This document shows positions 13,404 through 42,361 of a stretch of 64,000 bases of DNA, piece by piece. The notes under the pieces were generated by a model. That model saw nothing but the letters and a program-made list of their open reading frames with translations, did no database searches and had not been told where the DNA came from. Position 1 is the first letter of the stretch, and the number at the start of each line of letters is the position of its first letter. The position numbers were made by a program, and so were the translations under genes. Source of the stretch: Centipeda felix (GTDB lineage: Bacteria > Bacillota > Negativicutes > Selenomonadales > Selenomonadaceae); the NCBI RefSeq assembly GCF_900186465.1, contig NZ_LT891959.1, positions 1 through 64,000 on the forward strand, read 5' to 3'.

Positions 13404-14705
13404 GTGAATACAGTCAAGATAGCTCTTTTGGGTGCGGGGACAGTCGGCTCCGGCGTTATCCGCACCCTGTCTATGAACGGGGAGACGATTGCAGGACGCT
13501 GTGGCGCACGCATCGAGATCAAGAAGATTCTCGTCCGCGATGCGAAGAAATATCGTCCGGAGGCAGAGGGAATTGCCCTCACGGACAACTTTGAGGAGAT
13601 CCTGAACGACCCGGAGATCTCGATTGTCGTCGAGGTGATGGGCGGGCTCATGCCGGCAAAGGACTACATGCTGCGTGCCATGCGTGCGGGCAAACATGTC
13701 GTCACCGCCAACAAGGATGTCATTGCCGAACATTTGCGGGAGCTCTATGGTATAGCGGATAAGCATCACGTCGATTTCCTCTATGAGGGCAGTGTCGGCG
13801 GCGGCATCCCGATCATCAAGCCGTTGAAGGAATGTCTGACGGCGAACGAAATCTCCGAGGTCATGGGCGTCATCAACGGAACGACGAACTATATGCTGAC
13901 GAAGATGACGGAGAAGCATATCAGCTACGATGCTGTACTGCGACGTGCACAGGAAAAGGGCTATGCTGAGGCAAATCCGTCGGCGGATGTAGACGGCTTG
14001 GATGCCGCGCGTAAGGCGGCGATTCTGGCGTCACTTGCCTTTGATACCATCGTCGAGTTCGAGGATGTCTCCGTCGAGGGAATCTCACATATTACGGAAG
14101 ATGACATTGAGTACGGGCTGAACCTTGGCTACGTCATCAAACTCCTCGCAGTGGGACGCAATACGGAGGAGGGAATCGATGTGCGTGTGCATCCCGTGTT
14201 CCTCCCAAAGACGCATCCGCTCGCCTCAATCAACGGCGTATTCAATGCGGTCTTTGTGCGCGGCAATGTGATCGGTGAGGCGATGTTCTACGGCCGCGGT
14301 GCAGGCTCGCTTCCTACGGCATCTGCTGTGGTCGCGGATGTCATTGAGGTTGCGCGCGATATCGTTGCAGGGACGACGGGGCGCATGAAGTATCGGATTG
14401 GTGCGAAGAAAAAACTCTGCCCTGTGGAGAAGACGCGCTCCTCTTATTATCTGCGCCTTGTCGTCGCCGATGAGCCGGGCGTACTCGGTGAGATCGCCAC
14501 GACATTTGGACGCGCGGGGGTCAGTCTGCGGTCGGTCATTCAGGCAAGGTCGACGGTGAGCGGAGATGCGGAGATCGTTGCTGTGACACACGTTGTGACA
14601 CATGCGGCTGCCTCTGCCGCTGCTGCATCACTGCAGGCACTTCCTGTCGTACGCGAGGTGCGCAGCCTGATCCGTGTGGCGGACGGGCAGGAGGATACAC
14701 TATGA
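13404..14705 (+). CDS. hom: homoserine dehydrogenase
   Basis: Hom reduces aspartate semialdehyde to homoserine, the branch to threonine and methionine. The 433-residue protein has the N-terminal Rossmann motif LLGAGTVGSGVIRTL, the catalytic region GKHVVTANKDVIAEH, FLYEGSVGGGIPIIKPL and VMGVINGTTNYMLTKM, and YAEANPSADVDGLDAARKAA. A C-terminal ACT domain (about residues 350-430, YYLRLVVADEPGVLGEIA) suggests allosteric inhibition, in this family by threonine. GTG at 13404 is the start, after GGGAGGATGGG. The stop overlaps the thrB ATG. Confidence 0.97.
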   Translation: MNTVKIALLGAGTVGSGVIRTLSMNGETIAGRCGARIEIKKILVRDAKKYRPEAEGIALTDNFEEILNDPEISIVVEVMGGLMPAKDYMLRAMRAGKHVVTANKDVIAEHLRELYGIADKHHVDFLYEGSVGGGIPIIKPLKECLTANEISEVMGVINGTTNYMLTKMTEKHISYDAVLRRAQEKGYAEANPSADVDGLDAARKAAILASLAFDTIVEFEDVSVEGISHITEDDIEYGLNLGYVIKLLAVGRNTEEGIDVRVHPVFLPKTHPLASINGVFNAVFVRGNVIGEAMFYGRGAGSLPTASAVVADVIEVARDIVAGTTGRMKYRIGAKKKLCPVEKTRSSYYLRLVVADEPGVLGEIATTFGRAGVSLRSVIQARSTVSGDAEIVAVTHVVTHAAASAAAASLQALPVVREVRSLIRVADGQEDTL

Positions 14706-15652
14706 CAGAGCGCAGTGTACGCGTACGTGTCCCTGCGACGAGCGCGAATCTCGGCCCCGGCTTTGATGCGCTCGGCCTTGCCTGCACGCTGTATAACGAA
14801 ATGACCCTGACGCTTACGCGTGAGCCGGGGCTTTTGATCGTGGCACGCGGTGAGGGCGCCGCCTACATTCCGGGCGACGAGCGCAATATCGTCTGGAAGT
14901 CCATCCGCTATCTCTTGGATAAAGCGGGGCGTGCGGAGGAATTTCGCGGTGCACAGATCCGCATGAGCAACCGTATTCCGCTCTCGCGTGGGCTTGGCAG
15001 CAGTGCGACAGCGATTGTCGCAGGACTGACAGCAGCAAATGCGCTCATTGGCAGTCCGTTTGACCGTCATGCGCTGCTGCAGTTTGCGACGGACATTGAG
15101 GGGCACCCGGACAATGTGGCACCAGCGATCTATGGCGGCTTTACGGTAAATACCGTGACGGATGGAACGGTGGAATGCTTTTCCTTCCTGCCGCGTATTT
15201 TTCTGCGGTTCGTCGTCATGGTGCCGGACTTTTACCTCTCGACGAAGTCGGCGCGTGAGGTGCTCCCTGCCGAGGTGCCGATGAAGGATGCTGTCTTTAA
15301 CATCAGCCATGCGGCCATGCTTGTGGCGGCTCTGTCGCGCGGATCTGAGAAGCATCTGTGCAACGCCTTTGCGGATGCACTGCATCAAAACTACCGTGCG
15401 CCGCTCATCCCGGGGATGTTCGATGTCTTTGCCGCTGCAAATAAGGCGGGGGCATGCGGCGCGGCGCTCAGCGGAGCGGGTCCCTGTCTCATCGCCTTTG
15501 TTCCGGAGAAACGGAACTGCACCGAGGATGTTGCCCATGCGATGCGCGAGGCATTCCGTTCGCACGAGATCGAAGCACGTCCCCTGCAGCTTCGTCTCGA
15601 TACGAAGGGAGCGCGTGTCCTCCATCGCAGGAATGCGAATGTAAAATCATAG
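14702..15652 (+). CDS. thrB: homoserine kinase
   Basis: ThrB phosphorylates homoserine, the step before threonine synthase. The 316-residue GHMP kinase opens with RVRVPATSANLGPGFDALGL, has the ATP loop RIPLSRGLGSSATAIVAGL at about residues 92-110, and ends with a GHMP C-terminal domain containing GACGAALSGAGPCLIAF. It overlaps hom by ATGA, so the two form an operon. thrC is not next to it. The TAG stop abuts the left end of a repeat element. Confidence 0.97.
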   Translation: MTERSVRVRVPATSANLGPGFDALGLACTLYNEMTLTLTREPGLLIVARGEGAAYIPGDERNIVWKSIRYLLDKAGRAEEFRGAQIRMSNRIPLSRGLGSSATAIVAGLTAANALIGSPFDRHALLQFATDIEGHPDNVAPAIYGGFTVNTVTDGTVECFSFLPRIFLRFVVMVPDFYLSTKSAREVLPAEVPMKDAVFNISHAAMLVAALSRGSEKHLCNAFADALHQNYRAPLIPGMFDVFAAANKAGACGAALSGAGPCLIAFVPEKRNCTEDVAHAMREAFRSHEIEARPLQLRLDTKGARVLHRRNANVKS

Positions 15653-15812
15653 GAATCACTGATAAAATGAGGTCTGCCGGATTGGCGTAGATTTTTTCGT
15701 CCGAACGAGGTGGAAAACCGGACGCAGAGTGGTGCTCTGTGGAGGATTTTCCGCCGAAGTGCGGGCAAAAGAGATGCGTCAAGATGATTGTGCCGAATTT
15801 ATCAGTGATTCC
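15652..15812. repeat. structured repeat element, copy 1 (161 bp, inverted ends)
   Basis: The element has perfect 15-nt inverted ends, GGAATCACTGATAAA at 15652-15666 and its reverse complement at 15798-15812. Inside, GGTCT/GGATT (15671-15683), CGTCCG/CGGACG (15698-15724) and CAGAG/CTCTG (15725-15739) can form three hairpins. It shares long identical blocks with 42198-42361, notably the stretch from TTTTTTCGTCCG to CGGACGCAGAGTG and the block GATGCGTCAAGATGAT near the right end. No believable protein is encoded. It starts on the last base of the thrB stop codon. The form resembles a MITE or a large REP-type element. Confidence 0.8.
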
Positions 15813-15939: not shown

Positions 15940-16974
15940 ATGAAGGTCAGTATCATCGGTGCATCTGGCTATGCAGGGGAAGAACTCATCCGACTTCTTC
16001 ATGGCCACCCGCATGCCGAGATTGTACATCTGACATCGGAGCGCCATACGGGCGAGCGAATATCGAAACTTTATCCACATTTAACGCATATTTATGACAA
16101 TATACTGGACTCGATGGAGGATATCCACCGTATGGCAGAGGACAGCGATGTTCTCTTTATCGCACTTCCGCATGGACATGCAATGAAATTGGTCAAGGCG
16201 ATTGCTGATCTGCCGGTGCGTATCATTGATCTCGGGGCAGATTATCGCTTTGCCGACACATCGGTCTATGAGGCATGGTATCATGTCCCGCACACGGATC
16301 CGGAGGCAGAGCGGGTCTATGGACTTGCCGAGCTGTACCGCGATGCAATCCGTGGGGCGCATCTCATCGGCAATGCAGGCTGCTATACGACGGCAGGCAT
16401 TCTCGCACTGACCCCGCTCGTGCAGGAGCATCTCGTACAGATGGATTCAATTCTCGTCGATGCGGTTTCCGGTGCCTCCGGCGCAGGGCGTACACCGAAG
16501 GAGAGCACGCATTTCCCGGAGTTCTATGACAGCTTCACGGCGTATGGCGCAGTCAGTCATCGACACACCCCAGAAATCGAGCAAGCGCTCTCCGAGCAGG
16601 CAGGTGAGCCGGTTACGATTAACTTTACGCCACATCTTGCCCCGATAGTACGCGGTATCCTTGCCACGTGCTATGCACGCCTTGCGGATGGCGTAACGGA
16701 AGAGGATGTCGACGCGGCGTTTGCGGCTCAGTATGCAGATGAGTTTTTCATCCGTCTGCTTGGGCGTGGCGCGTATCCATCGACGAAGTATGTGCGCGGA
16801 ACAAATTACTGCGATATCGCATGGCATATTGATCCGCGTACGCATCGTGTTATTGTTTTTTCCGCGATTGACAATCTCGTCAAGGGAGCGGCAGGGCAGG
16901 CGATTCAGAACATGAACATCGCGCTTGATTTGGATGAGCGCACAGGACTCGACCTTGTGCCGATGTATCCATAA
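15940..16974 (+). CDS. argC: N-acetyl-gamma-glutamyl-phosphate reductase
   Basis: ArgC reduces N-acetylglutamyl phosphate to the semialdehyde with NADPH, the third step of arginine synthesis. The 344-residue protein has the Rossmann start IIGASGYAGEELIRLL, the active cysteine Cys148 in GNAGCYTTAG, and SGASGAGRTPKE. It also has the HRHTPEIEQ stretch and the FTPHLAPIVRGI motif near residue 230. It begins the argC-argJ-argB-argD run. The start follows GGGAGATGGGGGA. Confidence 0.97.
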   Translation: MKVSIIGASGYAGEELIRLLHGHPHAEIVHLTSERHTGERISKLYPHLTHIYDNILDSMEDIHRMAEDSDVLFIALPHGHAMKLVKAIADLPVRIIDLGADYRFADTSVYEAWYHVPHTDPEAERVYGLAELYRDAIRGAHLIGNAGCYTTAGILALTPLVQEHLVQMDSILVDAVSGASGAGRTPKESTHFPEFYDSFTAYGAVSHRHTPEIEQALSEQAGEPVTINFTPHLAPIVRGILATCYARLADGVTEEDVDAAFAAQYADEFFIRLLGRGAYPSTKYVRGTNYCDIAWHIDPRTHRVIVFSAIDNLVKGAAGQAIQNMNIALDLDERTGLDLVPMYP

Positions 16975-23977: not shown

Positions 23978-24019
23978 AAGGACTTGCTGATTGTTTTTTT
24001 ATCAGCAAGTCCTTAAATT
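23978..24019 (+). terminator. terminator of the arginine block
   Basis: AAGGACTTGCTGAT (23978-23991) pairs perfectly with ATCAGCAAGTCCTT (24001-24014), with a T-rich loop and AAATTTTA after it. Confidence 0.85.
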
Positions 24020-28845: not shown

Positions 28846-28856
28846 TTTGAACAGCA

Positions 28857-28871
28857 TTTATCAGTGATTCC
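28857..28871. repeat. solo end of the structured repeat
   Basis: TTTATCAGTGATTCC is identical over all 15 nt to the right end of the element at 15798-15812. No matching left end is nearby. It lies 12 bp after the HAD gene stop. Confidence 0.6.
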
Positions 28872-42197: not shown

Positions 42198-42361
42198 GGA
42201 ATCACTGACAAAATGAAATCTGTCAGATTGGCGTATTTTTTCGTCCGAACGAGGTGGAAAACCGGACGCAGAGTGAGACTCTGCACTAGATTCCCCCCCC
42301 CCCCCAAAGTACGGGCGATAAAGATGCGTCAAGATGATGGCACTAAAATTATCGTGCTTCC
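42198..42361. repeat. structured repeat element, copy 2 (with C13 tract)
   Basis: This copy shares with 15652-15812 the left end GGAATCACTGAYAAAATG, the core TTTTTTCGTCCGAACGAGGT through CGGACGCAGAGTG, and the right block GATGCGTCAAGATGAT. The hairpin arms have changed in step: AATCT/AGATT here against GGTCT/GGATT, and CAGAGT/ACTCTG here against CAGAG/CTCTG. The right end is degenerate (TTATCGTGCTTCC). A run of 13 C at 42293-42305 replaces the TTTTCCGCCG of copy 1. The element sits between a promoter and the PBP start codon. Confidence 0.8.

Follow-up and report, generated by a model that had tools for sequence, protein, structure and literature searches.

A MITE family of Selenomonadaceae whose hairpin core is kept by compensatory changes across genera

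Two related repeats in a 64,000-nt stretch of a Centipeda felix contig (NZ_LT891959.1), which we refer to as the window, are copies of a MITE of Selenomonadaceae that is about 160 bp long and bounded by inverted ends of 15 to 17 bp. Its core is one hairpin of about 115 nt that is kept by compensatory changes across genera. The conservation of this fold suggests that the element harbors a folded RNA or single-stranded DNA (ssDNA) with a function and is more than spreading junk. We consider it probable that it represents a MITE moved by IS5-family transposases, the core of which is selected as a single-strand fold of the plus strand, most likely as RNA. The MITE family is new and unusually structured, MITEs as such being already known.

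Both copies that a sequence-only reading of the window had proposed were recovered with a covariance model, R1 (Table 1), and are 78% identical to each other. The 15-nt perfect inverted ends described in that reading are true of copy 1; the ends of copy 2 match over 4 nt only. A run of 13 C residues in copy 2 also stands in for part of one hairpin arm, and this decayed copy is therefore a poor witness for pairing. The stop codon of a GHMP-kinase-type gene (14702-15652) shares its final base with the start of copy 1, which is followed by a semialdehyde-dehydrogenase-type gene (15940-16974), which we take to be argC-like, while copy 2 lies between a gene coding for MutS and Smr domains and one coding for transglycosylase and transpeptidase domains. 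A 33-nt core sequence has two matches in the window and none in 100 shuffles. Internally deleted versions of 56-115 bp are present elsewhere in the C. felix genome.

Table 1. Coordinates of the element, its parts, and related features (window positions unless a locus is named)
Feature	Position	Strand	Remarks
Full-length element, copy 1	15652-15812	+	Model R1: 166.3 bits on +, 47.7 bits on -
Left terminal inverted repeat GGAATCACTGATAAA	15652-15666	+	Ends the same, or nearly so, on relatives' IS5-family elements
TGATAAAAT, extended -10-like sequence, putative promoter	15660-15668	+	In 187 of 245 unique copies
Structured core, single long imperfect hairpin	15675-15790	+	Model positions 24-138
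Outer AGAU/AGAU internal loop (tandem G.A), 5' half	15679-15682	+	Columns 28-31; GGAU in copy 1
Inner AGAU/AGAU internal loop (tandem G.A), 5' half	15689-15692	+	Columns 38-41, 94-96% conserved
Apical helix CGCAGAGTGGTGCTCTGTG	15723-15741	+	97-100% pairing at five central pairs; G-C to U-A covariation
Inner AGAU/AGAU loop, 3' half	15772-15775	+	Columns 120-123, 95-100% conserved
Outer AGAU/AGAU loop, 3' half	15782-15785	+	Columns 130-133
Right terminal inverted repeat	15798-15812	-	Pairs with left end of copy 1
Candidate internally deleted remnant	23980-24012	.	33-bp end-to-end model match, 19.8 bits, E 0.006
Lone end sequence, 17 nt with 2 mismatches	28855-28871	-	Second end absent from scan output
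Decayed full-length copy 2	42198-42361	+	Model R1: 101.1 bits; 13-C run at 42293-42305
End-less hairpins, S10 operon and before rplJ	L330 7907-8022; L330 5734-5844; L331 5474-5588	+; -; -	

R1 was built from an alignment (A2) of 45 diverse copies, from which five odd ones, window copy 2 included, were omitted. In the C. felix genome it returned at least 135 matches with 150 of 1072 candidates scored; 13 of these are other-strand duplicates of one place, which leaves about 122 sites as a lower bound. BLAST gave at least 43 matches (40 of 143 candidates scored), and the end pattern alone gave 135 + 135 matches in this genome versus 2 + 1 for a reversed-pattern control. The objection that copies might prove few, raised when a wider copy search was proposed, thus fails. 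DNA searches detected the element in 13 of 14 genomes of the genus and, in a family-wide sample, in 16 of 61 genomes and 10 of 30 genera, and R1 detected it in 71 of 151 genomes and 19 of 30 genera of an order-wide sample, every genome among the matches listed being one of Selenomonadaceae. Because loci L073-L168 come from the matches listed for an exact core pattern, some of their alignment columns are fixed. Plasmid and phage collections gave no element match at E 1e-5. Separately, at least two copies (L169 and L170) occur in IMG/VR record 649989997 (114 kb, classed as viral), which may represent a prophage or a fragment of chromosome.

The copies have the hallmarks of transposition. Length is 157-163 bp in 258 of 269 full copies, with lengths differing by single bases, and the element, lacking a transposase gene, is too short to hold one. 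The flanking target duplications that were to be looked for are present: exact 4-bp duplications flank 142 of the 269 full copies (near-duplicates removed, pattern-selected loci kept), as against a mean of 18.7 and a maximum of 29 in 200 shuffles that re-pair the flanks. TTAA, TTAG, CTAA, and TATA lead among them; YTAR-type duplications (TTAA, TTAG, CTAA, or CTAG) account for 72 of the 142 exact cases and other sequences for 70 (e.g., TATA, 14; TTTA, 12; TAAA, 11). Empty orthologous sites contain the 4 bp once (offset -4), as in the pairs L116/L132 and L060/L059. Hence, of the MITE-like or REP-like origin suggested earlier, the MITE half is borne out by the inverted ends, duplications, and empty sites, and the REP half falls with the 4-bp duplications, REP/REPIN-RAYT systems having a short REP hairpin without target duplication. 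Membership in the Correia, ERIC, or RUP families was also rejected, as GGAA...TTCC ends with a 4-bp duplication do not match the TA found at the termini of those repeats (PMC2229807, Table 1), and an identity as a terminator was rejected because the long hairpin has no T-run after it. Two of the promoter scans flag a weak 5-pair stem within the 5' arm. One intergenic site carries the element in opposite orientations in two species (L001 and L063), with genome G008 having it there in the orientation opposite to that of L001, which suggests repeated, independent insertion at this site.

Similar ends were found on transposase-bearing elements of relatives. A 1263-bp element in G015, with ends GGAAACACTGATTAA and GGAAATACTGATTAA and TTAA on both sides, contains a 333-aa gene; G011, G001, G005, and G010 have elements of 1244-1247 bp that contain an open frame and whose ends fit GGAA.C[A/G]CTGAT[A/T]AA with zero to one mismatch, and two broken ones occur in G013, the partner transposase gene or pieces of it being present in 8 of the 14 genus genomes. 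The ends of the partner elements, including that of G015, agree with those of the MITE with zero to one mismatch in 15, and the three partner proteins that were scanned are IS5-family transposases (NF033581, 305-318 bits with a cut-off of 140; PF01609 and PF05598). Their flanking 4 bp are T/A-rich in seven of seven cases and identical in two (that of G015 and one in G013), differing by one or two bases in the other five; IS5 duplications are described as YTAR (PMC10359306). Of three MITE representatives from the same genus as G015, two (L252 and L181) read CTGATTAA as the IS does, and L178 differs. The MITE thus resembles IS5-group ISs in its ends and target type, the partner elements having the transposase of that family. 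Unlike them, it has no transposase gene, and by eye only the ends are common to both (about 15 bases and somewhat more at one G015 end). On the basis of these sequence similarities, we infer that IS5-family transposases would mobilize the MITE in trans via its 15- to 17-bp ends, with insertion at YTAR-like sites generating the 4-bp duplication. Our search of the C. felix genome found no partner transposase, and movement in trans is therefore put forward conditionally; this assembly being a draft, the gene may be missing from it or may have been lost.

The reverse situation is observed in G001, where the IS is present and the MITE is nearly absent (none by DNA search, one by R1); at the same locus as its IS with an open transposase frame is a 59-bp end-to-end remnant (L292 3708-3766). 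Two ends lying 1.02 kb from each other on contig C5 were considered as a further IS and discarded, as one of them is part of another MITE copy and none of the frames there resembles an IS5 transposase. Between the MITE copies on this contig, an open frame (L070 1600-2270) looks by eye like a PD-(D/E)XK nuclease-family gene (Rpn-type).

Because any inverted repeat folds on both strands, we tested for covariation. RNAalifold predicted a single long hairpin from 50 copies, with 13 of 49 pairs compensated. In the 45 copies of A2, which come from many genera, 35 of 49 pairs are compensated and 94.3% of the cells are paired; none of 500 shuffles matches any of five measures, and slid structures pair 39-48%. 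On a tree of 115 representatives, 74 double events (counted by branch and pair as changes of both sides with pairing retained) fall on 32 of 46 pairs, as against a mean of 5.7 and a maximum of 15 in 400 runs of a tree-based null (5.3 and 11 in 100 runs), and 11 of the 46 pairs singly have E<0.05. With the pattern-selected copies (L073-L168) and L169-L170 removed, 54 double events remain against a null mean of 4.1 and a maximum of 10 (200 runs). The signal is weaker in a harsher all-pairs test, where E<=0.05 is seen in 2 of 12,246 pairs, both of which are within the structure. Selection on an RNA or ssDNA fold, as proposed in the sequence-only reading, is thus upheld by covariation well above a phylogeny-aware null, and the counterargument that arms might vary without compensation does not stand. 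Base-pair covariation beyond phylogeny is also what, the transcript apart, is looked for in a functional structured RNA.

The shape of the fold differs from that first drawn. Among the three hairpins proposed, the apical helix CAGAG/CTCTG was retained, having 98% of its cells paired in the 115 representatives and covarying from G-C to U-A. The other two, GGTCT/GGATT and CGTCCG/CGGACG, have 81% of their cells paired each (76% and 62%, respectively, in other-genus rows) and are outdone by one long hairpin joining the halves of the element, which has 96% (95% in the 42 other-genus rows). Conservation is 94-100% at the unpaired positions of the AGAU/AGAU loops. Rfam 15 gave no match at the gathering cut-off in the window and none at E<=1 in seven loci.

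Further analysis points to one strand as the folded one. With a pair set obtained by plus-strand folding, Watson-Crick pairs that change on one side become G.U in 135 cases and A.C in 60 (47 and 5 on inner branches), where the tree null predicts 111 and 94. Since that pair set was itself derived from the plus strand, we repeated the count with interior pairs chosen by Watson-Crick content alone, obtaining 147 versus 70, or 66 versus 27 without pattern-selected copies; an alignment folded without G.U was tried as a strand-neutral structure and dropped, as it retained just 5 pairs. The excess of G.U over A.C among changes from Watson-Crick pairs indicates that the plus strand is the folded form. 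G.U makes up 12% of the cells in pairs. Predicted RNA energies, calculated for every second of 49 representatives, average -75.5 kcal/mol (z -9.8) on the plus strand and -51.8 (z -5.9) on the minus strand, predicted DNA energies are -33.2 versus -25.4 kcal/mol, and tandem G.A pairs would stabilize the AGAU/AGAU loops on the plus strand only. At the left end of 187 of 245 copies, TGATAAAAT lies six bases ahead of the hairpin and resembles an extended -10 sequence; a consensus sigma-70 scan of three sites (window copy 1 and the rplB-rpsS hairpin of two genomes) yielded no element promoter.

Some of the hairpins have no ends. Apart from a match at a contig edge, three R1 matches in the C. felix genome span only model positions 24-138, and all three are in ribosomal-protein operons, namely, between rplB and rpsS, between rpmC and rpsQ, and directly before rplJ, as we presume from the translations of these genes. 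The last of these is downstream of a weak match to the known L10 leader (36.7 bits, below its cut-off of 44), which is the sole related Rfam match near rplJ. The rplB-rpsS hairpin is found in 6 of 14 genus genomes, the rpmC-rpsQ hairpin in 3 of 14, and the rplJ hairpin in 3 of the 4 examined; at rplB-rpsS, five other genus genomes show only a short stem rich in GC, which may be what is left of the hairpin, and three have a 66-base spacer. Comparison of six species reveals that 11 of 94 paired versus 12 of 29 unpaired core columns of the rplB-rpsS hairpin vary, with compensatory G-C/A-U, C-G/G-C, and A-U/G-C replacements and, in small numbers, one-sided changes of which four are of the G.U type and one is A.C. 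Its fold reaches -70 on the plus strand, which is antisense to the operon, versus -41 on the minus strand. In the rplJ hairpin, three paired columns vary and no pair is broken; the rpmC-rpsQ hairpin varies at 19 of 74 paired and 23 of 46 unpaired columns, with several of its pairs broken between species. Among 96 further 8-kb loci, the only uncut, free-standing interior-only matches are two in the S10 operon of S. noxia, a pair that is probably G006 again, given its identical scores.

In the reading that we prefer, the core would be a conserved plus-strand fold, i.e., a long imperfect hairpin containing G.U pairs and two tandem G.A loops (AGAU/AGAU), which selection would retain in spreading lineages and, seemingly, in copies that are stationary; in ribosomal-protein operons, the ends would have been lost and the hairpin retained. 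Our guess is that the structured RNA, which might bind a protein or be a substrate of RNase III, would help the element or help the host to tolerate it. As the plus-strand bias is independent of gene direction and the plus strand is antisense at the ribosomal operon, an RNA made by the element is favored over a role in read-through mRNA, and our best guess is that the functional form is an RNA produced from the element's own plus strand. A more specific possibility, which we offer tentatively, is that this is a mobile RNA gene, whose discrete strand-specific RNA would act in trans throughout the family, having been spread by the transposon to about 120 sites in the C. felix genome and fixed without ends more than once in ribosomal-protein operons.

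It is doubtful that the hairpin instead serves the host as an insulator, rendering insertions in transcribed spacers harmless by forming an RNase III-type structure in read-through mRNA. The placement of the copies is what such a function would predict: by our simple home-made gene calling, 165 of 190 copies with two gene neighbors overlap no gene, some insertions, such as copy 1, are at stop codons, and the lower-quartile gap to the upstream gene is 1 base in copies codirectional with both neighbors, i.e., a quarter of these start at most one base from its end. The retention of end-less hairpins in ribosomal operons, the small divergence in place of most orthologous pairs (see below), and the reported cutting of Correia RNAs by RNase III (PMC10969869) are also consistent with it. 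However, the same gene calls place 63 copies in the direction of their neighbors and 58 against them, and antisense copies in general retain the G.U bias: terminal changes to G.U and A.C number 28 and 22 in sense copies, 26 and 13 in antisense copies, 17 and 10 in mixed ones, and 43 and 24 in unplaced ones. With orientation random and no stronger bias in sense copies, a host-mRNA role is unsupported. Moreover, the rplB-rpsS hairpin folds better on its plus strand and favors G.U-type changes there (in the small numbers given above) though that strand is antisense to the S10 operon.

We regard it as unlikely that the selected form is a plus-strand ssDNA hairpin acting in replication or transposition. 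Such a hairpin would account for a strand-specific fold regardless of gene direction, and the DNA energies also favor the plus strand, but the proportion of G.U cells fits RNA better, and hairpins persist where the ends, and hence mobility, have been lost. Further, no ssDNA hairpin is known to be required for DDE transposition with target duplication. It is more improbable still that no selection is involved and that template switching in the quasi-palindrome of an ordinary MITE keeps its arms complementary. Template-switch correction does produce paired changes, and the ends are themselves near-perfect repeats; yet correction would restore Watson-Crick pairs from G.U and A.C alike, at odds with the inner-branch counts, and would not predict the conservation of the unpaired AGAU/AGAU bases. 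That an old host RNA of ribosomal operons gained IS5 ends and became mobile, as the end-less hairpins in three ribosomal spacers might hint, is highly improbable, since in other genera no match was obtained at 26 rplB loci and one at 26 rplJ loci, the latter over the full model with its end positions, and a copy in the S10 operon of G037 (L260, outside these 26 + 26 loci) has ends, so that the ribosomal copies of other genera look like insertions.

The claim that the family is undescribed agrees with the literature searched, a partial coverage of work on Selenomonas together with MITEs, structured RNAs or covariation, and inverted repeats or transposases, in which we found no account of the element; a term search of a 2024 review of prokaryotic MITEs returned neither Selenomonas nor "compensatory." Several known families are comparable. 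QMITE1 and QMITE2 of Coxiella burnetii are likewise MITEs, of 150-400 bp with about 50 copies each, that are conserved among strains and give rise to small RNAs, but they have duplications of 2-3 and 7-11 nt and another host, and the abstract mentions no covariation test (PMC5896051). Correia/NEMIS, ERIC, and RUP are mostly 100-200 bp long, with terminal repeats, intergenic locations, and stable stem-loop transcripts (PMC2229807, PMC10969869), and the Correia and ERIC hairpins are reported or proposed to be compact RNase III-type structures in read-through mRNA. Pneumococcal BOX, RUP, and SPRITE are folded repeats with 30-125 copies, the RUP ends being IS-like (PMC3049150). The present element is set apart from Correia, ERIC, RUP, BOX, and SPRITE by its YTAR-like 4-bp duplication, IS5-family partner, presence in 19 genera, tested covariation, and end-less derivatives. 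IStrons similarly combine a DNA transposon with a structured RNA that makes insertions harmless, but that RNA is a self-splicing group I intron and the transposon parts are those of IS200/IS605 or IS607 (PMC4227781), and nothing points to splicing in the MITE.

Bacterial MITEs are often said to fold, yet any inverted repeat should; here, support for the fold comes from many compensatory changes across genera, from a strand preference, and from hairpins that outlive the ends. The question of whether a miniature transposon can harbor a working RNA, disseminate it, and donate it is thereby opened to experiment. The element also marks intergenic sites throughout the genome and has likely given rise to structured spacers and untranslated regions in Selenomonas and its relatives.

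Copies that stay in place change little. Over ten orthologous pairs, differences number 26 in 1600 positions of the element, 128 in 2127 of the intergenic flank, and 566 in 5487 of the coding flank; three of these pairs come from one species triplet, and the coding flank of L140/L153 aligns poorly. L003/L062, with 30 mismatches at one site, was omitted as a probable independent insertion, and L001/L043 and L176/L177, whose elements are identical, dropped out with the removal of duplicates. In most of the ten pairs, divergence is lower in the element than in its flanks; L032/L091 goes the opposite way, with 6 differences in 160 element positions versus 3 in 288 of the intergenic flank. The low divergence in place could result from gene conversion between copies.
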